A stretch of DNA of 37,130 nucleotides from NCBI GenBank assembly GCA_017459725.1, contig JAFUCL010000003.1, positions 1 through 37,130 on the forward strand, written 5' to 3'. Below, in pieces: positions 18,066-33,504 of this stretch (the stretch's first letter is position 1; each line of letters begins with the position of its first letter). This DNA comes from Solobacterium sp. (GTDB taxonomy: Bacteria > Bacillota_I > Bacilli_A > Erysipelotrichales > Erysipelotrichaceae). The translations under genes and the position numbers were made by a program. The notes beneath the pieces are model-generated. The model saw only the letters and a program-made list of their open reading frames with translations. It had not been told where the DNA came from and did not search any database.

Positions 18066-19265
18066 TTAGTCTTTTCCATTCTCTCGATACTTTTGAGGGG
18101 TAAGCCCTTCGTATTTTTTGAAAATCTGGGTGAAATAGCTTTGCGAAGGGTAATTAAGGTAATTGGTGATCTGACTCAGCGTACTGTCAGTATGGCGAAG
18201 CAGATATCTGGCTTCCTGCAGTTTTTCGCGGTGGATATATTCGGTAATGCCCATACCCATTTCTGCTTTGAAACGTATGGACAGACTTCGTCCGCACAGA
18301 CCGCAGTAATCGGAAAGGATATCCAGACTGATGGGCTCATGGAGATGGACAGAGATATACCTGAGGCAGGCTTCAATGATTTTGGATGAAGCCGGCTTTC
18401 TGCGGACTTCCCGTACTTTTCCGCAGAAATCCATCAGCATTGTAAAAGTCAGGTTCTGCAGCAGCGGAATTTCCGTGAGCAGATCAGCACGCTGGCAATA
18501 AAGATCACTCAGACTGAAGGCAGTTTCCGGTTCAAGACCGCCGCGGATCGCTGCCCGTGAGCTCAGTACCGCCATGCAGATAAAGGCATATTTCTGCTGT
18601 CGCAGATCATTTGAAGACATATGGCCGATATGGCCCTGAAAGGGAGAAAACAGGGCGCGTTCCAGCAATGCCCGGTTTCCTGATTCAACAGCGCCGCAGA
18701 TCGCTGTTTCAAAATCCTGCGGAACGTGATAATCAGCGGTTTCACGCTGTTCAAAGATCTGCCGGTCCAGCATTGTCATACCCAGTTTCCGGCCGGTTAC
18801 GGTATCGACGAACATAATACTGTCGGGACTGATCACATTTTCGAACAGTCTGCTCAGGATACAGATCAGATCTTTCAATTTTTCAAGAGAAACCAGCGGC
18901 TGCTGCAGAAGCTGGTCACAGAACTGCTGCAGAAAGACAGGCTGAATCGCCTCGCCGATTTTTTCCAGCAACTCCGAACGGGTATGTACATACGGGCTGA
19001 CAATGCCGATCAGCACATAATAACCGCCGTCCAGTTCTATCATGCCGAGAAGCAGTCCGGGATCAAAAAAACTGATCAGCGGATGGGATTGATCACGTCC
19101 ATATACTTTGAAATCATGCAATACGGCATCGGCGGCATTCTCTTTCAGCAGGCCGCTGTCGGCTGGCGGAAAAGACCGCAGAAGACTGCCTTTCTCATCG
19201 ATCAGAGACAGAGGAATGCCGGCAATACTGTGCATACCTTCCAATACTGATAATATTTTCTGCAT
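18066..19265 (-). CDS. AraC-family transcriptional regulator
   Basis: The protein of about 399 residues has a C-terminal AraC DNA-binding region from about residue 295 to 395: first helix-turn-helix near LDILSDYCGLCGRSLSIRFK, second near STLSQITNYLNYPSQSYFTQ, followed by FKKYEGLTPQKYREN. The N-terminal 250 residues form a sensor domain of no familiar type, with GMIELDGGYYVLIGIVSPYV and a helical middle. The start at 19265 is chosen because GGGAGG lies 5 bases upstream; an in-frame ATG 16 codons earlier has no such site. It is divergent from the GPH symporter gene and most likely controls the rhamnosidase locus. It may recognise the perfect palindrome at 19321-19338. Confidence 0.9.
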   Translation of the reverse strand: MQKILSVLEGMHSIAGIPLSLIDEKGSLLRSFPPADSGLLKENAADAVLHDFKVYGRDQSHPLISFFDPGLLLGMIELDGGYYVLIGIVSPYVHTRSELLEKIGEAIQPVFLQQFCDQLLQQPLVSLEKLKDLICILSRLFENVISPDSIMFVDTVTGRKLGMTMLDRQIFEQRETADYHVPQDFETAICGAVESGNRALLERALFSPFQGHIGHMSSNDLRQQKYAFICMAVLSSRAAIRGGLEPETAFSLSDLYCQRADLLTEIPLLQNLTFTMLMDFCGKVREVRRKPASSKIIEACLRYISVHLHEPISLDILSDYCGLCGRSLSIRFKAEMGMGITEYIHREKLQEARYLLRHTDSTLSQITNYLNYPSQSYFTQIFKKYEGLTPQKYRENGKD

Positions 19266-19297
19266 ATTTTCCTCCCAAACATAAGAATATCGTAAAT

Positions 19298-19338
19298 TTG
19301 ACATAAGAATCAATAATTTTATATACCGAACGGTATAT
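19298..19338 (+). promoter_or_regulatory. Promoter and perfect palindromic operator of the glycoside locus
   Basis: TTGACA (19298-19303) is followed after 17-18 bases by ATATAC/TATACC as -10. The -10 lies inside the perfect 18-bp palindrome ATATACCGAACGGTATAT (19321-19338). A protein bound there would block this promoter. AraC proteins usually bind direct repeats, so a second repressor, for example of LacI or TetR type outside the window, is possible. A minus-strand promoter for the AraC gene (TTGATT, 18 bases, TATTCT) lies in the same gap. Confidence 0.6.
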
Positions 19339-19404
19339 CACAAGTATATTGATGATGTGAAAAGGGGGAAGAAAGCCCTTACAGATTCATAAATGGAGGA
19401 AATT

Positions 19405-20808
19405 ATGGCAAAAAAAGAACTCGGTCTTGACAGCATGGGTATTCAGAAAACCATGCGTCTGAAGGACTATCTGGGAGATGGTATCGGCCAGCTTCCGCTG
19501 AACGTTATGTCCTGTCTGGTAGGACAGCTCACGTATTTCTACACAGAGAAAGTCGGTCTTGCGGCAGGTGCCGTGGCAACAATGCTGCTGATCGCAAAGA
19601 TTGCTGATGCTTTCTCAGACCTCATCATGGGAAAGATCATGGATAAAGTGAATTCGCCGAAAGGTAAGTGCCGTCCCTGGTTCCTGTGGATGGCTGCCCC
19701 GACAGTTGCTATCATCGTCCTGATCTTCACAGTACCGCATGCATCAAGCGGACTGCAGATGGCATATGTCCTGATCACAAACATTCTGATTTCCGCAGTG
19801 ATTTATACAGCCATTGCCATCCCTTACGGCTCCATCATGGCTGTCCGTACAGAGAGTATGGAAGAACGCGGAAAGATGGGAATTGCACGTACAGTATTCG
19901 GCTACCTGATCGGTATGGTCATCGCAGTTCTTCTGATCCCGATCACAAACATGCTCGGTCCGAACGGTGTTGCTGACCAGGCTGCATGGATCAAAGTCGG
20001 TGTCGTCTTCGCAATCCTTTCCGGTGCATCACTTCTGGTTCTCTACCGCACTTCCAAGGAAAACTCTGAAATCCAGAAACTCCAGAACACTGAAAAGCAG
20101 GACAGCTTCTTTGAAGAACTGAAACTCCTGTTCAAAAACAAGTACTGGGTTATCATGCTGATTGCCAACCTGTTCGTCAATATCTCCTATGGTCTGAGTT
20201 CCTCAGGCGGAACATACTATGCCAAGTATATCCTCGGCAACGACAACATTGTCGCCCTTCTCGGTGCAATCGGCCTGATCCCGACATTCCTCGGTTTCAT
20301 CCTGGTCGGCCCCATGACAAAGAAATTCGGCATGGCTAAGACCTGCATGATCGGAACAATCCTCGGTGCAGTTGCCTGTGTCGTCCGTGTATTCACACCG
20401 TACAGCTTCTACTCCTGTGTCATCGGCGGTGCATTCCAGACATTTGCAACAATGCCGATCATGTGTGTCAGCGGTGCGCTGGTCAACAACTGTGTAGAAT
20501 ACAACGAATGGAAGTTCGGAAAGCGTCTTCTCGGTATGAGCAACTCCGCAAGTTCATTCGGTGCCAAGGTCGGATCCGGTATCGGCGGATCCCTGATCGG
20601 ATGGCTCCTGGCTGCTGCAGGCTACGTCGCAGGTGCAGCTGCACAGCCCGCTTCAATCAACACGGCAATCTTCTCATTCGCAATCTATATCCCGCTGGCT
20701 CTGTTCGTAATCCTGGCGATCCTGTTCTCCAAGTATGATCTTGAAGGTATCTACCCGAAGATCATGGAAGAACTCCGTGTACGCAGAGCAGAAAAAGAAA
20801 ACGCATAA
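19405..20808 (+). CDS. GPH-family sugar:cation symporter (MelB-like MFS)
   Basis: The 467-residue protein has about twelve membrane segments and the glycoside-pentoside-hexuronide family signature: DYLGDGIGQLPLNV in helix 1, then DAFSDLIMGKIMDK with the conserved Asp pair that binds the coupling cation, followed by GKCRPWFLW. It should import a glycoside, disaccharide or uronide with Na+ or H+. The ATG at 19405 follows GGAGG by 6 bases; an in-frame ATG at 19393 lies within that site. The genes downstream encode rhamnosidases, so rhamnosylated oligosaccharides or glycosides are the likely cargo. All the enzymes lack signal peptides, consistent with import of an intact glycoside before cleavage. 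Confidence 0.9.
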   Translation: MAKKELGLDSMGIQKTMRLKDYLGDGIGQLPLNVMSCLVGQLTYFYTEKVGLAAGAVATMLLIAKIADAFSDLIMGKIMDKVNSPKGKCRPWFLWMAAPTVAIIVLIFTVPHASSGLQMAYVLITNILISAVIYTAIAIPYGSIMAVRTESMEERGKMGIARTVFGYLIGMVIAVLLIPITNMLGPNGVADQAAWIKVGVVFAILSGASLLVLYRTSKENSEIQKLQNTEKQDSFFEELKLLFKNKYWVIMLIANLFVNISYGLSSSGGTYYAKYILGNDNIVALLGAIGLIPTFLGFILVGPMTKKFGMAKTCMIGTILGAVACVVRVFTPYSFYSCVIGGAFQTFATMPIMCVSGALVNNCVEYNEWKFGKRLLGMSNSASSFGAKVGSGIGGSLIGWLLAAAGYVAGAAAQPASINTAIFSFAIYIPLALFVILAILFSKYDLEGIYPKIMEELRVRRAEKENA

Positions 20809-20873: not shown

Positions 20874-23633
20874 ATGCTGAAACTGTATGATCTGACTATT
20901 GAATATAAAACAAACCCGCTCGGTATCGACGAAGTGCAGCCCCGCTTCAGCTGGAAGCTTGAAAGCGATCAGAATAATACAATCCAGACAGCCTATCAGC
21001 TGACAGTATCCAACGGCGAAGTTATGTGGGATACCGGTAAGGTTGAATCAGATCAGAGCATTCTGGTCGAATACATGGGAGCCCTTTTCGAGGCGAAAAC
21101 TGAATACAAATGGGATGTTACCGTATGGGATAATCACGGAGAGAGTGCAGAGGCTTCCGCGGAATTTGAAACAGGCCTGCTTAAAGGCAATGCATTTGAA
21201 GGCAAAGCAAACTGGATCACCCATGGTTTTGCAAAAGAAGAAACAGCAAGTCCCGTCTTCACGAAGACATTCAATATAGCTAAGCCGGTTGTCAAAGCAC
21301 GTCTTTATGCAACAGCACTTGGTGTATATGAAGCAGAGGTCAATGGTATAAAGGCTGATGATACATACTTCGCACCAGGCTGGACAAGCTATCACAAGCG
21401 TCTGCAGTATCAGACTTATGCCATTGACCAGCTCCATGAAGGTAAAAACGAAATCCGCTTCACACTAGGCAAAGGCTGGTATTCCGGTCCGCTCGGCTTC
21501 ACGCCGACACCGAACCACTACGGTGATACCACTGCGCTGCTGGCAATGCTTGTCATTACGTATGAAGACGGTACGGAAGAATTCATCGGCACAGATGAGA
21601 GCTGGAATGTTACCGCAGGCGTCATCCGTTTCTCCGAAATCTATGACGGTGAGACACAGGACTGGACATCTGAAGAGACCCTCACCGGAAAGGCACAGTT
21701 GTTCGATCATGGCTTTGACACATTGATCGCCCAGGAAAACGAGCCTGTCCGCTGCCTGTGCACACTTGTGGCAGCGAAAGAATTCACAGCGCCGAACGGT
21801 GAACATCTCTTTGATTTCGCACAGAATCTGACCGGCTGGGTACAGGTGAGAGTTCATGGCAGAAAAGGCCAGAAGATCACGCTTCGCCATGCAGAGAGCC
21901 TGGATGAAAACGGAAACTTCTACACGGGTAACCTGAGCTTTGCCAAAGCGACAGACACCTACATCCTGAACGGAGAAGAACAGACACTGCGTCCGCATTT
22001 CACATTCCACGGCTTCCGCTATGTATGTCTGGAAGGTCTTGAAGAAGGACAGAACATTGAGCTGACCGCATGCCATCTCTCCAGTGATCTGAAGGAAGCC
22101 GGAAACTTCTCCTGCTCGGATGAACGCATCAACCGTCTGTATCAGAACATCGTCTGGGGCCAGAGGGACAACTATCTCGATGTGCCGACAGACTGCCCGC
22201 AGAGAAGCGAGCGGCTGGGCTGGACGGGAGACGCGACGGCCTTTACGCCGACGGCGGTATTCCATCAGAACATTATGCCGTTCATGCGAAAATGGCTGCG
22301 CGATCTCGCCGCGGATCAGGATCCCGCAACCGGTGCGCCTCAGGTAGTGCCGGACGTGCTTTCCGACGGCGCGACAGGCGGACAGAACGGCGCGGCTTAC
22401 TGGGGCGACGTCACGACTGTCGTACCATGGACACTGTATGAAACATACGGCGACAAGCGAGTTCTTTCCGAACAGTATGAATCGATGAAGATCTGGACAG
22501 AATATGTCCGCCGTCAGTGTGCAGACAGCGGGCTCTGGCAGGATGGCTTCCAGTATGCTGACTGGCTCGGGCTTGACGCTGAGATGAACGGTCTGGCTGA
22601 ACCGCGCAAAGGCGCTACAGATGATTATTTCGTCGCAAATGCCTGCTGGCTCTGGACGCTGCAGATTATGACAGATACCGCAAAAGTACTCGGCAATACG
22701 GAAGATGAGAATACTTACAGAAGCCTGCGTGAAAAAGTCCTCGCTGCTTTCCGCGATGAATACGTTACAAAAACAGGACGTCTTGTCAGCGAGACACAGA
22801 CAGCCATGGTCCTGGCACTTCACTTCGGCCTGGTTGAAGATCAGTTCAGAAAAGCGGTCGCAGACCGGCTTGAAACAAACATCGCCGCACATAAGACACA
22901 TCTGACAACAGGGTTCATCGGAACACCGTATCTGTGTCTGGCTCTGAGCGATAACGGCAAACATGACATTGCCGGAAAGCTTTTTCTGCAGGAAGAGAAT
23001 CCGGGCTGGCTCTATGAAGTAAAAATGGGAGCTACAACGATCTGGGAAAGATGGAACTCCATCATGCCCGACGGCAGTTTCAATCCCGTAAATATGAACA
23101 GCCTGAATCACTACGCATACGGATCGATCGGTTACTGGATGTATACGCGCCTGTGCGGACTGCAGATGCTTGAGCCCGGCTATAAGAAGTTTGCGGTGAG
23201 ACCTGCTTTCATTAAAGGCATTACGCATGCGGAACTGAGTTATGAGAGTGTTTACGGAACGATCAGAACAGCATGGAGATGCGAGAACGGAAAGATCACA
23301 GTGGATCTGACAGTACCCGTCAATACGGCTGTCGAACTGACACTGCCGGAAAGGGAAGAAACAATCACACTCGGAAGCGGTGTGTATCACTATGAATATG
23401 AGACGGAAACACGTCTGGAGCAGGATCGCTATACGATGGAAACACTGCTGCGGGTCATGCTGGATCATCCGGCAGCGCAGCCGATCATCCGTCAGTATAT
23501 GCCCCAGATGCTCGATAATCCCATGATCGAGTATGTCAGGGAAGAACCGATCTCCACGCTGCTGACATATTCGGCAGAAGCAAAACCTTTATATGAAATG
23601 ATCCTGAAAGCAATGAATGAGTCAGGAATTTAA
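20874..23633 (+). CDS. Alpha-L-rhamnosidase 1 (GH78)
   Basis: The 919-residue enzyme should release terminal alpha-L-rhamnose from glycosides. The order is: N-terminal Fn3-like strand domain (1-110), Bac_rhamnosid_N (about 135-290, with YATALGVYEAEVNG and GWTSYHKRLQYQTY), a middle beta domain, the (alpha/alpha)6 barrel (about 420-770) and a C-terminal beta domain. The GH78 signature DVPTDCPQRSERLGWTGDA is present. Acidic residues D563, D568 and E570 in DWLGLDAEMNG and E725 in TTIWERW are at the expected catalytic positions. There is no signal peptide, so it acts in the cytoplasm on imported substrate. A C-terminal extension of about 75 residues (from about 840), helical and rich in Met and Pro, is beyond the usual family end. 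Bases about 22180-22400 are visibly richer in CpG than their surroundings. Confidence 0.93.
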   Translation: MLKLYDLTIEYKTNPLGIDEVQPRFSWKLESDQNNTIQTAYQLTVSNGEVMWDTGKVESDQSILVEYMGALFEAKTEYKWDVTVWDNHGESAEASAEFETGLLKGNAFEGKANWITHGFAKEETASPVFTKTFNIAKPVVKARLYATALGVYEAEVNGIKADDTYFAPGWTSYHKRLQYQTYAIDQLHEGKNEIRFTLGKGWYSGPLGFTPTPNHYGDTTALLAMLVITYEDGTEEFIGTDESWNVTAGVIRFSEIYDGETQDWTSEETLTGKAQLFDHGFDTLIAQENEPVRCLCTLVAAKEFTAPNGEHLFDFAQNLTGWVQVRVHGRKGQKITLRHAESLDENGNFYTGNLSFAKATDTYILNGEEQTLRPHFTFHGFRYVCLEGLEEGQNIELTACHLSSDLKEAGNFSCSDERINRLYQNIVWGQRDNYLDVPTDCPQRSERLGWTGDATAFTPTAVFHQNIMPFMRKWLRDLAADQDPATGAPQVVPDVLSDGATGGQNGAAYWGDVTTVVPWTLYETYGDKRVLSEQYESMKIWTEYVRRQCADSGLWQDGFQYADWLGLDAEMNGLAEPRKGATDDYFVANACWLWTLQIMTDTAKVLGNTEDENTYRSLREKVLAAFRDEYVTKTGRLVSETQTAMVLALHFGLVEDQFRKAVADRLETNIAAHKTHLTTGFIGTPYLCLALSDNGKHDIAGKLFLQEENPGWLYEVKMGATTIWERWNSIMPDGSFNPVNMNSLNHYAYGSIGYWMYTRLCGLQMLEPGYKKFAVRPAFIKGITHAELSYESVYGTIRTAWRCENGKITVDLTVPVNTAVELTLPEREETITLGSGVYHYEYETETRLEQDRYTMETLLRVMLDHPAAQPIIRQYMPQMLDNPMIEYVREEPISTLLTYSAEAKPLYEMILKAMNESGI

Positions 23634-23643
23634 GGAGATGACT

Positions 23644-26600
23644 ATGGATAACAGAGTAAAGGAAACTCTTGCGAAGATGACGTTGGAGGAGAAAATATCT
23701 CTCTGCAACGGTACGGATTTCTGGCACAGCAGGGCATTTGAAAAGTACGGTATTCCTTTCATCACGATGTCGGATGGCCCCCACGGACTTCGTGTGCAGA
23801 AGGGTGACGCGGATATGCTGGGCGTCAATGTATCCGAACCCGCCACATGTTTCCCCACCGCTGTCGCAAGCGGGGCGTCATGGGACCGCGGACTTCTGAA
23901 AGAAGAGGGCAGAGCAATCGGTGAAGAAGGCCTTTCATATGGCGTCGATGTCGTGCTCGGTCCGGGCGTCAATATCAAACGGGATCCGAGATGCGGACGG
24001 AATTTCGAATACTTCTCCGAGGATCCCTTTCTGGCAGGTGAAATGGGAACTGCCTGGGTGCAGGGTGCTGAGAGCACCGGCATCGGTACAAGTCTGAAAC
24101 ATTTCGCAGCCAACAGTCAGGAATTCAAACGCTTCAACGGAAACAGCCAGTTGGATGAGCGCACTCTGCGTGAAATCTATCTGCCTGCTTTCGAAACAAC
24201 TGTGAAAAAAGCGCAGCCTGCCACGGTCATGTGCGCGTATCCCATGCTCAACGGCGTGCACTGCAGCGATAACAAAAAACTGCTGAACGATATCCTCCGT
24301 GATGAATGGGGCTTTGAAGGCCTGGTCGTTACGGACTGGGGAGCGCTTTGCGACCGTGTAAAAGCCATGGAAGCAGGCTGTGATCTTTCCATGCCCGGCG
24401 GCAGTGATTACATGGAAGACCGTGTGGCTGCGGCAGTGCGTGAGGGGACACTTCCCGAAAGTGCAGTGGATGCCTGCGCGGCACGCGTGATCCGTCTTGC
24501 GCTGCGGTCACAGGAAAACAAAAAAGAACAGCCTTTCGATATGGAAGCGCACAATGGGACCGCAGAAAAAGTCGCTGCCGGCGGTGCGGTCCTTCTGAAA
24601 AACGAAGACAATATCCTGCCGCTGAAGAAGGAAGATATCGTCCTGATTGGAGACATGGCGCAGAATATGCGTTATCAGGGCTCCGGGTCGAGCCATATCA
24701 ATCCGACAAAGCTCACAAGCCTCAGAGACGTTCTGCCCGATGTGCCGTTCGCGGCGTGCTGTAGCGCAGACGGTGAAGTAACGGACGAAAGCCTGAGTGA
24801 AGCGGTCCGTCTGGCTGAAAATGCAAAGACAGCCGTCATCTGCGCCGGCCTTCCGGATATCTATGAATCCGAAGGGTTTGACCGTGAAGATCTGCGGATG
24901 CCTGCAGGTCATGTACGCATGATCGAAGCAGTAGCAGCGGTCAATCCGAACACCGTCGTCGTCCTCTTCTGCGGCTGCGCGGTGGAAGTTCCGTGGATCG
25001 ATAAAGTAAAAGCGGTGCTGTATATGGGCCTTCCCGGCCAGTCCGGCGGGCAGGCAGCCGGGGATATCCTGATGGGAAAGGTGAATCCTTCAGGCAAACT
25101 GACGGAAACATGGCCGCTGAAACTTTCCGACGTTCCTTCCTATGAGACATTCGGAAAGAAGTATACGCATTACAGTGAAGGCCTCTATGTCGGTTACCGG
25201 TATTATCAGAAGGCAGGAGTTCCGGTGCGCTTCCCGTTCGGATACGGTCTCAGTTATACATCATTCGAGTACAGTGATTTCAAAGCGGACAAATATCATG
25301 CGGCCGCAAAGATCACCAATACAGGAAATACAGCCGGTGCGGAGATCGTACAGCTGTATGTGAAAGCACCGCAGGACGGTCTTTACCGCCCTGTACGGGA
25401 ACTCAAAGGGTTTGCGAAAGTATTCCTCGAGCCGGGTGAAACAAAAGAAGTCAGTTTTGATCTGAATGAGCGCAGTTACGCGGTATGGACAGACGGATGG
25501 AAAGTTCCTTCCGGCACATACGGGATCGAGATCGGTACTTCCTCGGAGGATATCCGTATGACGGCGGATATCACTGTTGAGGGTGAAGAAATGCCGGTTC
25601 CTTCCTGGCAGCAGGGAAGCTGGTATGAAAAACCGCAGGGCCATCCTTCAGACCGGGACTTTGAAACAATATTTGGCGGTCCGATACAGAAAGAGCCTGA
25701 AATCCGTAAAGGACAGTTCACTATGGAAATGTCCACGATGGAAATGAAGGATACTTCTCCTATTATGAACATGATGTTTAAGATCACGGAGAAGACCATT
25801 GCGAAGGGGTTCGGCGGGAAAGCCGATTACAGCAATCCGACGTTCAAAATGATGGTCATGTCCGGTGCCGACGCACCTCTGCGCGCGACAGTACTGTCAT
25901 CCGGCGGAGTGTTCCCGGCGAATGTTGCGGAAGGCATGCTGGAGATGGCAAACGGTCATATGTCTGAAGGAATCAGGAAATTTGCCGTAAAAAAGCCGGC
26001 GGAGAAAAAGACAAAGACAAGCGCAATGCACAGGTTTCTCTTCAGTGTTCTGATGAAGAACAAACACATCTATGATCCTGAAAATCCGCGGGACTACGCC
26101 GCTGCGAGACAGTCGGAGATCGACAGTGTGAAAATGATCAGGATCCCCAGCAAGATCAGGATATTCCGCTCATATCTCGGAAGAGTTCCCGCGGTATGGA
26201 TCTCAAAGGAGAATAACCCGCTTGACAGGATCGTCCTGTATATCCATGGCGGCGGCTTCGTCACGGGATCCACAGAAGCCCGAAAAGGCTTCACATCCTA
26301 TATTGCGGATAAGCTCGGCCTGAATGTCGTTTCGATCGATTACCGTCTTGCGCCGGAACATCCGTTCCCGGCCGGACCGGATGACTGTTTTGAAGCGTAT
26401 AATGCACTTCGGGAAAAATACAGGGCGGACCGGATCGTCCTGCTTGGCGAAAGCGCCGGCGGAAACCTCATTTTATCACTGCTGCTGCAGATAAAAGACG
26501 CTGGACTGCCTCTGCCCGCAGGGACGTTCGCGATCGCTCCGGCCGTACAGTTTGACAAAGAACTGGACAGCTACAGGGACAATGCGGACACGGACTGCAT

Positions 26601-26955
26601 CGTGGCAAATCTGTCCGGTGAAGTCTTTGACACATATCTCTGTTCACGGGATGAAGCGGTAACAAAAGATCCCAAGGCAGCGCCGTATTACGGTGACTTC
26701 ACAGGCTGCACGCCGGTCGTTCTCTGGGCGTCCGAAACAGAAGTCCTGCTTGACGACAGCCTGATCATGTTTGAAAAGCTGAAGGAACAGGGTGTTGTCA
26801 CGAAGCTGTATCTGCGTGACGGCATGATGCATACATGGATGATCATTCCGAACTTTGCGGAATCAAAGAAGGATCTGGCGATCCTTGGAAAAGATATGCA
26901 TCTTGCACTGAACGGAAAACTCAGTGCTGCGTCTGAACCGGTCAAACTTGACTGA
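23644..26955 (+). CDS. GH3 beta-glycosidase fused to an alpha/beta-hydrolase esterase
   Basis: This 1103-residue protein joins two enzymes. The N-terminal GH3 part has the barrel (1-290, nucleophile D231 in VVTDWGAL), the GH3_C domain (about 300-520) and an Fn3-like domain (about 560-650). A helical linker with GMLEMANGHMSEGIRKFAV follows. Residues about 840-1090 form an HSL-type (abhydrolase_3) domain: oxyanion motif HGGG at 868-871, nucleophile S937 in GESAGG, acid E1033 or D1037 in ETEVLLDD, and H1063. A typical GH3 enzyme of this kind is 700-800 residues, so the esterase is an addition. The pair suggests removal of acyl groups and beta-linked sugars from one substrate. There is no signal peptide. 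ATG at 23644 is chosen for AAGGAG 6 bases upstream, which contains the rhamnosidase stop region; earlier in-frame ATGs lie inside the upstream gene. Confidence 0.92.
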   Translation: MDNRVKETLAKMTLEEKISLCNGTDFWHSRAFEKYGIPFITMSDGPHGLRVQKGDADMLGVNVSEPATCFPTAVASGASWDRGLLKEEGRAIGEEGLSYGVDVVLGPGVNIKRDPRCGRNFEYFSEDPFLAGEMGTAWVQGAESTGIGTSLKHFAANSQEFKRFNGNSQLDERTLREIYLPAFETTVKKAQPATVMCAYPMLNGVHCSDNKKLLNDILRDEWGFEGLVVTDWGALCDRVKAMEAGCDLSMPGGSDYMEDRVAAAVREGTLPESAVDACAARVIRLALRSQENKKEQPFDMEAHNGTAEKVAAGGAVLLKNEDNILPLKKEDIVLIGDMAQNMRYQGSGSSHINPTKLTSLRDVLPDVPFAACCSADGEVTDESLSEAVRLAENAKTAVICAGLPDIYESEGFDREDLRMPAGHVRMIEAVAAVNPNTVVVLFCGCAVEVPWIDKVKAVLYMGLPGQSGGQAAGDILMGKVNPSGKLTETWPLKLSDVPSYETFGKKYTHYSEGLYVGYRYYQKAGVPVRFPFGYGLSYTSFEYSDFKADKYHAAAKITNTGNTAGAEIVQLYVKAPQDGLYRPVRELKGFAKVFLEPGETKEVSFDLNERSYAVWTDGWKVPSGTYGIEIGTSSEDIRMTADITVEGEEMPVPSWQQGSWYEKPQGHPSDRDFETIFGGPIQKEPEIRKGQFTMEMSTMEMKDTSPIMNMMFKITEKTIAKGFGGKADYSNPTFKMMVMSGADAPLRATVLSSGGVFPANVAEGMLEMANGHMSEGIRKFAVKKPAEKKTKTSAMHRFLFSVLMKNKHIYDPENPRDYAAARQSEIDSVKMIRIPSKIRIFRSYLGRVPAVWISKENNPLDRIVLYIHGGGFVTGSTEARKGFTSYIADKLGLNVVSIDYRLAPEHPFPAGPDDCFEAYNALREKYRADRIVLLGESAGGNLILSLLLQIKDAGLPLPAGTFAIAPAVQFDKELDSYRDNADTDCIVANLSGEVFDTYLCSRDEAVTKDPKAAPYYGDFTGCTPVVLWASETEVLLDDSLIMFEKLKEQGVVTKLYLRDGMMHTWMIIPNFAESKKDLAILGKDMHLALNGKLSAASEPVKLD

Positions 26956-29529: not shown

Positions 29530-29937
29530 CGCCGGTCCCTGGCCAAACCGCAAGACAGATCAAAACCCACAGAAACGGTGATACTTTACTCACTCTGGTG
29601 GTGTGTGATCGCGGTCTTCCATGGCAAGACAGGCAGCGGCTATCTGACGCAGTTCTATCCGCCGGTCGGCCCTGTCACATATCTGGGCATTACACAGGAC
29701 AGAGACGGCCACTTCAAATTCGTTGTCGCGGAAGGTGAGAATCAGGAAGGCCTGATCTTCACATTCGGTGACACCAACATGCGTACGAAGTTTTCGATCA
29801 GTGCAAGGGAATTCGTCAACAGATGGTCCGGGGCAGGTCCGAGGCATCACATGGCCGCTGCCGCAGGCAGACACATTGACACGATCCTCAAAGTCACAAA
29901 GATCTTCAATGTACCGGTCGACATCGTCACAAGATAA
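29530..29937 (+). pseudogene. 3' remnant of an L-fucose/L-arabinose isomerase-family gene
   Basis: An open frame bounded upstream by TGA at 29527 encodes about 110 protein-like residues: HGKTGSGYLTQFYPPVGPVT, GHFKFVVAEGENQEG, FTFGDTNMRTKFS and the end segment WSGAGPRHHMAAAAGRHIDT. The AEGE segment, GDTN and the late HH are typical of the C-terminal domain of fucose/arabinose isomerase-type proteins, which are 450-500 residues long. The N-terminal three quarters are missing, and no start codon with a ribosome site is present (a GTG at 29578 is a poor candidate). It is therefore a truncated gene, caught between the rhamnosidase and SDR genes. The original enzyme probably isomerised a sugar released by the neighbouring hydrolases. 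Confidence 0.6.
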
Positions 29938-29966
29938 TGTTTCTGATTACACAAGGAGGAAAACCT

Positions 29967-30980
29967 ATGAAAGTATTCATGATCGGCGGCACCGGACTGC
30001 TGGGCAGTGAGGCCGCCAAAGTCCTGATCGAAAGAGGACATGAAGTATTATCCATCGCTCTGCCGCCGCTGCCGAAAGGCGCGGTACTCCCGGAGAAAAT
30101 GATAATCGAATTCGGCAATTATCTCGAAATGAGTGATGATGAACTGCGTGAAAAACTGGCCGGCTGTGAAGGATTTGTCTTTGCGGCAGGTGTGGATGAA
30201 AGAGTCGAAGGTCCATCACCAATCTATGACCTGTATAAAAAGTACAATATCGATCCGGTCAAAAGACTGCTTGGTTTATGCAAGGAATGCGGTGTAAAGC
30301 ATGCGGTGATCTGCGGTTCTTATTTCTCATACTTTGCCAAGAAATGGCCGGAAAAGCAGCTGACAAAATGGCATCCGTATATCCGCAGCAGAATTGATCA
30401 GGAAAATGAAGCGATGAAGTTCGCGGATGATGGCTTCAGCGTCGCGGTTCTGGAACTGCCGTATATCTTCGGCACACAGCCTGGCAGAAAACCGGTCTGG
30501 GTATTCCTTGTTGAACAGGTCATGTCGATGAAAGGCGTTACGCTTTATCCAAAAGGCGGCACGACCATGGTTACCGTGCATCAGGTCGGCCAGGCCATTG
30601 CCGGCGCCCTGGAAAAAACCGAAGGCGGCAGATGCTGGCCGATCGGCTACTACAACATGACATGGAAGGAAATGCTGAAGATCGTTCATAAATATATGGA
30701 CTGCCCGGAAAGACCTGTCATCACGATTCCCAACTGGATGTATGCGATGGGCGGAAAGCAGATCATCAGGGAACAGCAGGAAAAAGGTATCCAGGGCGGT
30801 CTGGAGATGGTGAAGTTCACCGATATCATGTGCGCCAATACATTCATTTCCAAGACAGAAGGATGTATTCCGCTCGGCGTACAGCCGGATGATATAGAAG
30901 GGGCCATCGGTGACAGCATTCTCCTTTGCCGGGATATCCTGGAAAACAAGACGGAAACGATCGGGATGAAGGGGGAATGA
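29967..30980 (+). CDS. NAD-dependent epimerase/dehydratase-like extended SDR (YxxxR variant)
   Basis: The 337-residue protein has a Rossmann fold with the cofactor motif GGTGLLG (residues 7-13) and family-like LELPYIFGTQPGRKP and TMVTVHQVGQAI segments. The position of the catalytic YxxxK pair reads Y138-IRS-R142, with Arg replacing the usual Lys. The enzyme may therefore act differently or only bind nucleotide. The ATG at 29967 has AAGGAGG 8 bases upstream; an in-frame ATG at 29937 lies at the stop of the isomerase remnant. The next SDR gene overlaps or abuts its stop (ATGA), so the two are likely partners. Possible roles are oxidation or epimerisation of a sugar, or reduction of an aglycone. 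Confidence 0.8.
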   Translation: MKVFMIGGTGLLGSEAAKVLIERGHEVLSIALPPLPKGAVLPEKMIIEFGNYLEMSDDELREKLAGCEGFVFAAGVDERVEGPSPIYDLYKKYNIDPVKRLLGLCKECGVKHAVICGSYFSYFAKKWPEKQLTKWHPYIRSRIDQENEAMKFADDGFSVAVLELPYIFGTQPGRKPVWVFLVEQVMSMKGVTLYPKGGTTMVTVHQVGQAIAGALEKTEGGRCWPIGYYNMTWKEMLKIVHKYMDCPERPVITIPNWMYAMGGKQIIREQQEKGIQGGLEMVKFTDIMCANTFISKTEGCIPLGVQPDDIEGAIGDSILLCRDILENKTETIGMKGE

Positions 30981-30982
30981 TC

Positions 30983-32512
30983 ATGAAAAGAATGCGTGTG
31001 TTCATGACCGGTGCCGGCGGCGGCATGGGTTATGAAAGCTTCAAACAGATGGAAAAGGATCTGGGGGAGCTGTATGATCTGGTGATCCTCGTTCGCGACA
31101 GTGATAAAAACCGCAGACTGTTCGAGCGGTATATCGGCACAAAAGGTTTCACAGTCATCTTCGGTGATCTTCTGAACAAGGATGATGTCATGGAATGCGT
31201 GAGAAGAAGTGATCTGTGTCTGCATATCGCCGCTTTTGTTTCGCCGGCCGCGGATTATCACCCGGATCGGGCGATGAAGAACAACTACGGTTCCACAAAA
31301 AACATCATCGAAGCCGCAAAGGAACTGGGCAAAGAAGACACATACAAATTCGTCTATATCGGCACCGTTGCGGAAACAGGCGACCGCATGCCGCCGATTC
31401 ACTGGGGCAGAGTCGGAGATCCGATCAAACCGAGCATGTTCGATTACTATGCCGTATCCAAAGTCGCCGCTGAACGTTATGTCATTGAGAGCGGCCTGAA
31501 ATACTGGGTATCGCTGCGTCAGACCGGCATCATGGGTCCGGCAATGGCGAAGATCCGCGATGCCATCCAGTTCCATAACTGCATCGACAATGTCCTGGAA
31601 TATGTATCCGACCGAGACAGCGGCAGGGCAATGCGAAACCTGTGCGCCTTTGATGCAGACGGCACCCTGGATCCGTCCTTCTGGGGACACATCTACAATA
31701 TCGGCGGCGGTGAAAGCTGCCGCATTGATACCGGAAAGATGTATGAAATCATGTATGGCAAGCTGGGCTTCACTTCCCTGGATTCCGTAATTGAACCGAA
31801 ATATACTGCCACCCGCAATTTTCACGGCCAGTATTATCTGGATTCCGACAAGCTGGAAAACTATCTGCATTTCCGCTGTGATTCCATGGAGTATTTCTAT
31901 GACGCCTACATGAAGGAACTTGGCGCCGCAAGAGGATTCGGCAATCTGATCAATAAAGTACCAAAGGGCCAGGAACTGATGGGCAGCATCATCCGGAAGA
32001 CATTTGAACCACTGTATCACAGTGAACACGGCACAAAGCATTTTATCGAGGATAATGTGGAAGATCATATCGACGCCTACTGGGGCAGCAGAAAGACCTG
32101 GGAGGAAATACCGGAAAAATACAGCGAGCTGAAACGGTTCACGGACTGGGATACGGTTGTTGAAATCGATCATGGCTATGACGAAACAAAACCGGAAGCA
32201 GAACTGGATCTTGAGGATATGAAGAAGGCCGCTGAATTCCGCGGCGGCGTATGCCTCAGCAATGAAATGGTCAAGGGAGACTGGAAAACAAAGCTGAAGT
32301 TCAGATGTGCCTTCGGCCATGAATTCACAGCCAGCCCCCGTCTTGTTCTGGAAGGAGGCCACTGGTGCGATGAGTGTGAACGTAAGAGCTGGAATTACGG
32401 CAACCGCGCCAAGGTGGATCCGTTCTTTGCCCAGGTATGGAAACCTCTTCATGATGAAGATGAAACCAGGGAATACCCGAAGGCTGTTTCGGAAACGGAC
32501 ATTGACAAATAA
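30983..32512 (+). CDS. Extended SDR with C-terminal zinc-ribbon
   Basis: The 510-residue protein is longer than normal extended SDRs (about 310-350). Residues 1-330 form the SDR: cofactor loop MTGAGGGMG (8-16), HIAAFVSPAADY, TVAETGDR and the catalytic pair Y156-AVS-K160. A linker of about 100 residues, rich in charged and aromatic residues, follows. Residues about 440-470 form a zinc-ribbon-like unit with C442, H446, C462 and C465 (CxxxH...CxxC). ATG at 30983 has GGGGGA 6 bases upstream; an in-frame ATG at 30977 overlaps the previous stop. It is the last gene before a strong terminator. The substrate is unknown; the zinc ribbon could bind nucleic acid, a partner protein or simply stabilise a lid. 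Confidence 0.82.
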   Translation: MKRMRVFMTGAGGGMGYESFKQMEKDLGELYDLVILVRDSDKNRRLFERYIGTKGFTVIFGDLLNKDDVMECVRRSDLCLHIAAFVSPAADYHPDRAMKNNYGSTKNIIEAAKELGKEDTYKFVYIGTVAETGDRMPPIHWGRVGDPIKPSMFDYYAVSKVAAERYVIESGLKYWVSLRQTGIMGPAMAKIRDAIQFHNCIDNVLEYVSDRDSGRAMRNLCAFDADGTLDPSFWGHIYNIGGGESCRIDTGKMYEIMYGKLGFTSLDSVIEPKYTATRNFHGQYYLDSDKLENYLHFRCDSMEYFYDAYMKELGAARGFGNLINKVPKGQELMGSIIRKTFEPLYHSEHGTKHFIEDNVEDHIDAYWGSRKTWEEIPEKYSELKRFTDWDTVVEIDHGYDETKPEAELDLEDMKKAAEFRGGVCLSNEMVKGDWKTKLKFRCAFGHEFTASPRLVLEGGHWCDECERKSWNYGNRAKVDPFFAQVWKPLHDEDETREYPKAVSETDIDK

Positions 32513-32669: not shown

Positions 32670-33281
32670 TCAGTATTCAATAGCAGCGCGCCATGGGGCA
32701 GGCAGATCACCGTGCCTTCGCTCACGCATGGTGACAGTTTTGCTTTGGAAAAGGCTTTCGGGAAGCTTTACAGTATCTGTTTCTCTTCTGGGGCCTGTCC
32801 CGATTGCCAGGTTAACAAAAACCCAGGTCTCATATTCTACTTCTGTACAGCCTCTATTCGGCTTCTGAAGCAACCTTTCAAGCTCTTCATCTGTATATGT
32901 TTCCGGTATTGTCTTCTGGAATCTTGGGATGATGACTTGAAATGGAGCGATGCAGTTGTTAGCCATCATCCAGTAAAACCAGGCTCTGATACTGCGGCAG
33001 ATTGCCGCTATAGTTATGTCCTTCTTTCCCTGGTTCTGCTGGTCAACGATGAACTGATTGTAATGGATCTTTGTGCATGTCTTATATGCTGGAACGCCAG
33101 AGTTCTGCAATGTCCGCAAATACATGCTGCAGTGGAATCGGTAGACGAGAAGCGTCTGCTCAGACAAGTTTTCTGCCTGTTTTTCGGCTAAGAACCTTGT
33201 CATTAGCTCTTCTGCACTGAAAGATGGATAGATTTCTGTAGATAGTTCAGCTTGATTGATTCTTCCTGTTCTCTTTTTCAT
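32670..33281 (-). pseudogene. Truncated tyrosine recombinase (integrase), N-terminal part
   Basis: The 203-codon frame starts with an N-terminal SAM-like core-binding domain (EELMTRFLAEKQAENLSEQT, then YRFHCSMYLRTLQNSG and AAICRSIRAWFYWMMANNCI) and the beginning of the catalytic domain (YTDEELERLLQK, then VNLAIGTGPRRET, where GxRRxE-like residues hold the first catalytic Arg). Integrases of this type are 290-400 residues long. Everything after the first catalytic Arg region, including HxxR and the nucleophilic Tyr, is missing, and the last 20 residues look unrelated. It lies 140 bases inside the tRNA-Leu gene and reads in the same direction, the usual place for the recombinase of a tRNA-integrated element. 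It should be inactive. Confidence 0.8.
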
Positions 33282-33420: not shown

Positions 33421-33504
33421 TGGTGCGCCTGACAGGACTTGAACCTGCACGCCGTAGGCAATAGATCCTAAATCTATCGTGTCTGCCGATTTCACCACAG
33501 GCGC
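33421..33504 (-). tRNA. tRNA-Leu(UAG)
   Basis: The minus strand gives an 84-base tRNA with encoded CCA. The acceptor GCGCCTG pairs with CAGGCGC, the D arm contains GGTGAAATCGGCAGAC, the anticodon stem ATAGA/TCTAT encloses loop TTTAGGA with anticodon TAG, a long class II variable arm (TGCCTACGGCG) is present, and the T arm is GCAGG-TTCAAGT-CCTGT. It reads CUA and probably other CUN leucine codons. A TATAAT box lies about 30 bases upstream. Its 3' 52 bases are duplicated at 16687-16738, marking it as the integration site of the island. Confidence 0.95.

Follow-up and report, generated by a model that had tools for sequence, protein, structure and literature searches.

In Glutamicibacter halophytocola, a GH2/GH3/GH78 cluster has been described that deglycosylates potato glycoalkaloids (PMC9597252), and a Paenibacillus enzyme hydrolysing sesaminol triglucoside has a plant lignan glucoside as its substrate (PMC3622683). 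Bacterial HSL (bHSL) esterases are described as promiscuous (PMC8293918); one of them, EstD04, is assigned the triad Ser160/Glu253/His283, and the family carries an (E/D)XL motif (PMC10385968). Here we describe a gene of Solobacterium sp. that places a GH3 enzyme and a bHSL esterase in one chain, found in a 37,130-nucleotide stretch of contig JAFUCL010000003.1 (hereafter the window). Both modules come from well-known families and the gene is a variant of the bifunctional glycosidase-esterase kind; the join itself is rare in the sets searched, and searches of an open-access library, preprints being outside its scope, yielded no GH3-bHSL fusion.

One reading frame encodes two complete enzyme modules

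Translation of the gene gives 1103 residues and zero internal stops. Its features are as follows.

23632..23637, + strand: AAGGAG, likely ribosome-binding site, 6 nt 5' of ATG 23644
23644..26955, + strand: predicted GH3 beta-glucosidase/bHSL-type esterase fusion gene, 1103 aa
23644..25986, + strand: GH3 module, residues 1-781 (N and C domains, Fn3-like domain, helical C-terminal extension)
25987..26016, + strand: true linker, Lys-rich, about residues 782-791
26017..26913, + strand: bHSL esterase module, residues 792-1090 (HGGG 868-871, S937, E1033, H1063)

The AAGGAG stands at the usual spacing from ATG 23644 and overlaps the stop codon of the preceding GH78 gene; the frame listing also gives an upstream in-frame ATG at 23617, with an alternative product of 1112 aa. 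Pfam places GH3_N at residues 62-285 (147.8 bits against a cut-off of 27), GH3_C at 316-538 (177.7 against 31), an Fn3-like domain at 567-634 and Abhydrolase_3 at 864-1066. All four exceed their curated cut-offs, and both modules also score far above theirs in a 72%-identical homologue (genome G050). Translation, domains and motifs agree with the initial annotation, which had read a GH3/Fn3 module followed by a complete HGGG/GESAGG hydrolase with its His in a single frame and had proposed the domain search.

Two details of that annotation changed. It had placed a helical linker between the modules. Stand-alone GH3 homologues from the bacterial family align with the fusion as far as residue ~780, so the helical stretch past the Fn3-like domain is part of the GH3 enzyme, and alignment with the bHSL esterase EstD11 begins at residue 12 of the esterase model, residue ~792 of the fusion. 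The linker therefore measures about 10-12 residues, and most of the presumed helical linker is GH3 C-terminal extension and esterase cap. The annotation had also remarked on Glu1033 at the usual Asp position. Glu occupies this position in 32 of 36 aligned esterases (Asp in the other 4) and is thus ordinary; as EstD04 is likewise assigned Glu253 (PMC10385968), we rejected an unusual catalytic acid.

In the GH3 half, the motifs TDW (230) and ESEGFDR (408) are present; D231 is kept in all 19 GH3-containing alignment rows and E410 in 18. From these motifs we take D231 (24334-24336) to be the nucleophile and E410 (24871-24873) the acid/base. The nearest solved structures are beta-glucosidases (7ms2, 8j9f and 5wab), with C. 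thermocellum BglB (7ms2) and Paenibacillus PSTG1 (8j9f) closest. None of the NCBIfam GH3 equivalog models reaches its cut-off on the fusion, the best match being NF041610 (exo-alpha-(1->6)-L-arabinopyranosidase; 722.6 bits, cut-off 1300). Judged by sequence, this half belongs to glycoside hydrolase family 3 and is a predicted beta-glucosidase.

The second half carries Abhydrolase_3 and every family IV landmark: HGGG at 868, GESAG at 935 (matching GXSAG), the acid-site ASETE at 1029 (E1033, of the (E/D)XL motif) and MMHTW at 1061 (H1063), with S937 and H1063 invariant in 36 of 36 aligned esterases. Modelled alone from a 36-row alignment, a selection from the available esterase sequences, it has a mean pLDDT of 94.0 and superposes on EstD11 (Z score 42.2) at 1.5 A across 287 residues within the model range 12-310. 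Its closest solved relatives are Est8, EstD11, EstE5 and E40, and it scores 156.9 bits on the NCBIfam GESAG-motif HSL subfamily NF058651, under the cut-off of 430. A model of the whole protein was good in the GH3 half and poor in the esterase half because stand-alone esterase rows had been aligned to the wrong half. By sequence and fold, the second half belongs to the bacterial HSL (family IV) esterases, N-terminal cap included.

The fusion contains no strongly hydrophobic segment (the best 19-residue mean, 1.81, lies within the GH3 domain), and its N-terminus is not signal-like by eye. Given this lack of hydrophobic segments and the position of the gene behind a symporter, the enzyme is probably cytosolic.

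The join is conserved and rare

An uninterrupted full-length frame also occurs in genomes G024 (99% identity) and G050 (72%). With the window's own genome (G000), these are the only three carriers in surveys of 272 family and 315 order genomes. Between G000 and G050, NG86 gives a dN/dS of 0.157/2.64 over GH3 residues 1-640 and of 0.277/2.37 over esterase residues 831-1085; these ratios are rough, synonymous distances being near saturation. Both halves are thus under purifying selection. Because the same frame recurs in G024 and G050 and dN/dS lies far below 1 in both halves, we rejected an assembly error or frameshift. The initial annotation had named an erroneous join, or an esterase that is always a separate gene, as findings that would count against it; the join is genuine, and the esterase is fused in three genomes and separate but adjacent in six.

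The survey of domain order that it had proposed found the arrangement rare, as a statement on these genome samples. Query P0002, run on 395 class and 392 phylum genomes that overlap the earlier sets and were sampled evenly out of larger groups, returned the window's own gene as the sole fused match, and a scan of 84,980 species genomes showed no GH3 fusion among the best 80 loci listed.

The fused gene sits between rhamnosidase genes

Four neighbouring genes define the setting of the fusion.

18066..19313, - strand: AraC-type regulator, divergent
19393..20808, + strand: GPH-family sugar:cation symporter (TIGR00792 over cut-off)
20874..23633, + strand: GH78 alpha-L-rhamnosidase, 919 aa
26971..29502, + strand: second GH78 alpha-L-rhamnosidase, 843 aa

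The fusion gene thus lies between two GH78 genes, with symporter and regulator upstream. This run recurs in G024; the run in G050 is AraC, GPH, GH78 and fusion. Close behind the second GH78 gene, the window carries two NAD-dependent epimerase/dehydratase (SDR) genes (29937-30980 and 30926-32512, both +), and G024 has frames of equal or near-equal length at the corresponding place. Farther on, a 203-residue frame (32670-33281, -) without a Pfam match resembles, by eye, a truncated tyrosine recombinase N-terminus; it adjoins a tRNA gene (33424-33504, -) and is possibly the remnant of an integrated element.

Relatives with separate genes share this setting. Esterase matches at E <= 1e-40 numbered 18 in the 315 order genomes: 3 fused to GH3, 6 directly behind a GH3 gene and 9 neither, with no GH3 within the 1.5 kb flanks of these nine. 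In the six adjacent cases (G109, G111 contig 37, G114, G115, G118 and G133), the esterase starts 1-3 nt past the GH3 stop. G114, G118, G115 and G133 have the order AraC, GPH, GH78, GH3, esterase and RhaA, and G111 has the part from GH78 through GH3 and esterase to RhaA, up to the contig end. Downstream lie a RhaD-type aldolase and an FGGY-kinase-like gene in G133 and G111, an aldolase in G114 and an FGGY-kinase-like gene in G118, the kinases being assigned by similarity or eye. A Clostridia bacterium from water-buffalo reticulum (isolate RGIG7792, JAFZIH010000088.1; locus L064) has the order AraC, GH3, GPH, esterase, GH78, FGGY kinase, RhaA and class II aldolase. Recurrence of this gene set in another order speaks for a shared pathway.

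Loci of some relatives carry further genes. In G114, a GDSL-type acylhydrolase gene (L041 9496-10239, +) between symporter and GH78 is a second candidate deacylase. A rhamnose aldolase-like gene and GH3 flank a gene for an LCM-type methyltransferase (L152 10834-11655, -; L154 11110-11907, -) in G204 and G206; this enzyme possibly methylates the freed aglycone.

Transporter, rhamnosidase and the RhaA/RhaB/RhaD set are complete in the separate-gene relatives and L064. The window has transporter and rhamnosidase, and the fused-gene genomes retain one or two GH78 genes; none of the three has a RhaA match, nor a RhaI match with a model whose control also scores below cut-off. Rhamnose may be discarded or used via a route other than the isomerase one, or the genes may be missing from these assemblies, which are 90-94% complete. 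Directly 3' of the second GH78 gene, a 119-residue frame (29578-29937, +) shows similarity, below the cut-off, to the L-fucose isomerase C-terminal domain (PF02952, E 6e-6) and is 99% conserved in G024; it looks like a sugar isomerase remnant.

A predicted pathway for acylated rhamnosyl-glucosides

Taken as a whole, these genes lead us to predict a small glycoside that is imported and carries an acyl ester, alpha-L-rhamnose and beta-glucose. The reading we favour, and hold with somewhat better than even confidence, is that the fusion works in the cytosol as a bifunctional enzyme and that its locus serves to import and break down acylated rhamnosyl-glucosides of plant small molecules. The GPH symporter would import the acylated rhamnosyl-glucoside, the esterase half would strip the acyl group, the GH78 enzymes would remove alpha-L-rhamnose, and the GH3 half would act last, releasing glucose from the aglycone. 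Fusion would couple deacylation to deglucosylation in a fixed 1:1 ratio, a presumed benefit.

The initial annotation had predicted a substrate in which an ester and a beta-glycosidic bond occur together. This has become likelier with the linkage of GH3 and esterase in rhamnoglycoside operons of several genomes, as an inference still; the flanking GH78 genes, absent from that annotation, add an alpha-rhamnosyl group. Phenylethanoid glycosides and acylated flavonoid rutinosides fit the predicted chemistry, and verbascoside carries ester, rhamnose and beta-glucose together. Searches of the open-access library gave no specific result on loci for acteoside/verbascoside degradation. Given the promiscuity of bHSL esterases, the natural ester could be something else.

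A bolder version is tentative, and we would sooner doubt than adopt it: Erysipelotrichaceae and Clostridia may share a dedicated type of locus whose substrates are acylated rhamnosyl-glucosides, say acylated flavonoid rutinosides or phenylethanoid glycosides like verbascoside. One lineage would then have fused deacylation to deglucosylation and would hand the deacylated intermediate on directly. Under this version, the fused lineage may discard the rhamnose itself.

Three other readings were weighed against the proposed pathway. The two halves could act on different molecules, the GH3 half on glucosides and the esterase on unrelated or general esters, after a near-neutral boundary loss kept for balanced expression only. 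bHSL promiscuity (PMC8293918), the presence of the fusion in just 3 of 272 family genomes and the unlinked state of GH3 and esterase in several relatives are in keeping with this; we nevertheless judge it unlikely, as the esterase is repeatedly linked to GH3 and GH78/rhamnose genes in differing orders and purifying selection acts on both halves. An improbable reading is that the substrate consists of acetylated cell-wall oligosaccharides such as rhamnogalacturonan fragments, attacked by an acetyl esterase and a GH3 enzyme removing arabinose, xylose or glucose. GH78 is found in pectin systems too, and the top NCBIfam GH3 match is the arabinopyranosidase model, at 723 bits against a cut-off of 1300; however, the window genes scanned include no lyase, GH105 or GH28-type gene, the cluster has two GH78 genes, a single GH3 and a GPH symporter, and beta-glucosidases head the list of solved relatives. 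That the chain yields two proteins, by an internal start at ATG 26026 or by proteolysis at the Lys-rich linker, is very hard to credit: residues 785-859 do fall under pLDDT 50 in the full model, whose esterase half is unreliable, but by eye no good Shine-Dalgarno precedes that ATG at the usual spacing and the G050 junction has no start codon at the corresponding place.

Origin of the join

In G118 and G114, GH3 and esterase are in the same frame, separated by a stop and one further codon, so the loss of one stop would fuse them. This makes simple stop loss within the clade of the six adjacent-gene genomes an attractive candidate origin, but the fused form does not fall inside that clade in the trees. 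The fused GH3 is sister to the GH3 genes of G059, G204, G205 and G206 in a tree with some long-branched rows, and no such esterase lies within 1.5 kb of GH3 in these four genomes. In the esterase tree, built from 53 rows after removal of duplicates and of most sequences below 33% identity, the fused esterase clusters with the esterases of Holdemanella sp. (G163) and the Clostridia MAG L064, outside the adjacent-gene clade; the Holdemanella esterase gene sits on a different contig, surrounded by unrelated genes. Because the fused form falls outside that clade, these trees suggest that the GH3-esterase association either is old and was lost in places, or came about at least twice. The join itself probably arose when the boundary between two genes, translationally coupled within one operon, was lost. 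At a Herbinix locus (L111), a GH3 gene precedes by 0.3 kb the gene of a more distantly related bHSL esterase, which is outside the clade of the fused form; no rhamnosidase was found at that locus, and we left it out of the counts.

Comparison with known systems

The fusion appears to point to the function of this esterase family in gut-type bacteria, namely working with beta-glucosidase and rhamnosidase on one imported plant compound. It offers a testable substrate class, acylated rhamnosyl-glucosides, which bears on the release of plant aglycones by gut microbes. Should one molecule be the target of both halves, the protein would amount to a ready-made deacylating glucosidase working in two steps.

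Among described systems, the G. halophytocola cluster is like the proposed pathway in that GH78 and GH3 together strip a plant small-molecule glycoside; the word 'esterase' is absent from the main text of that paper, and we found no fusion described there (PMC9597252). C. thermocellum BglB (7ms2), Paenibacillus PSTG1 (8j9f) and the B. adolescentis GH3 enzyme (5wab) share with the fusion the catalytic motifs, the arrangement of domains and the length as far as residue ~780, at 41-44% identity in the structure matches, but their chains are without the esterase module that the fusion has. GH3 enzymes like PSTG1 cleave a lignan glucoside (PMC3622683). EstD11, Est8, EstE5 and E40 share with its esterase the N-terminal-cap fold, HGGG, GXSAGG, (E/D)XL and the catalytic His, whereas they are stand-alone enzymes with about 30% identity to it.

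We also observed single frames of ~872-880 aa joining a flavin monooxygenase-like domain to Abhydrolase_3 in Paenibacillus sp., Mesobacillus persicus and Neobacillus citreus (loci L091, L098 and L107). These fusions likewise place a bHSL esterase C-terminal to a partner enzyme, which is a monooxygenase there and a glycosidase in the GH3-esterase gene.
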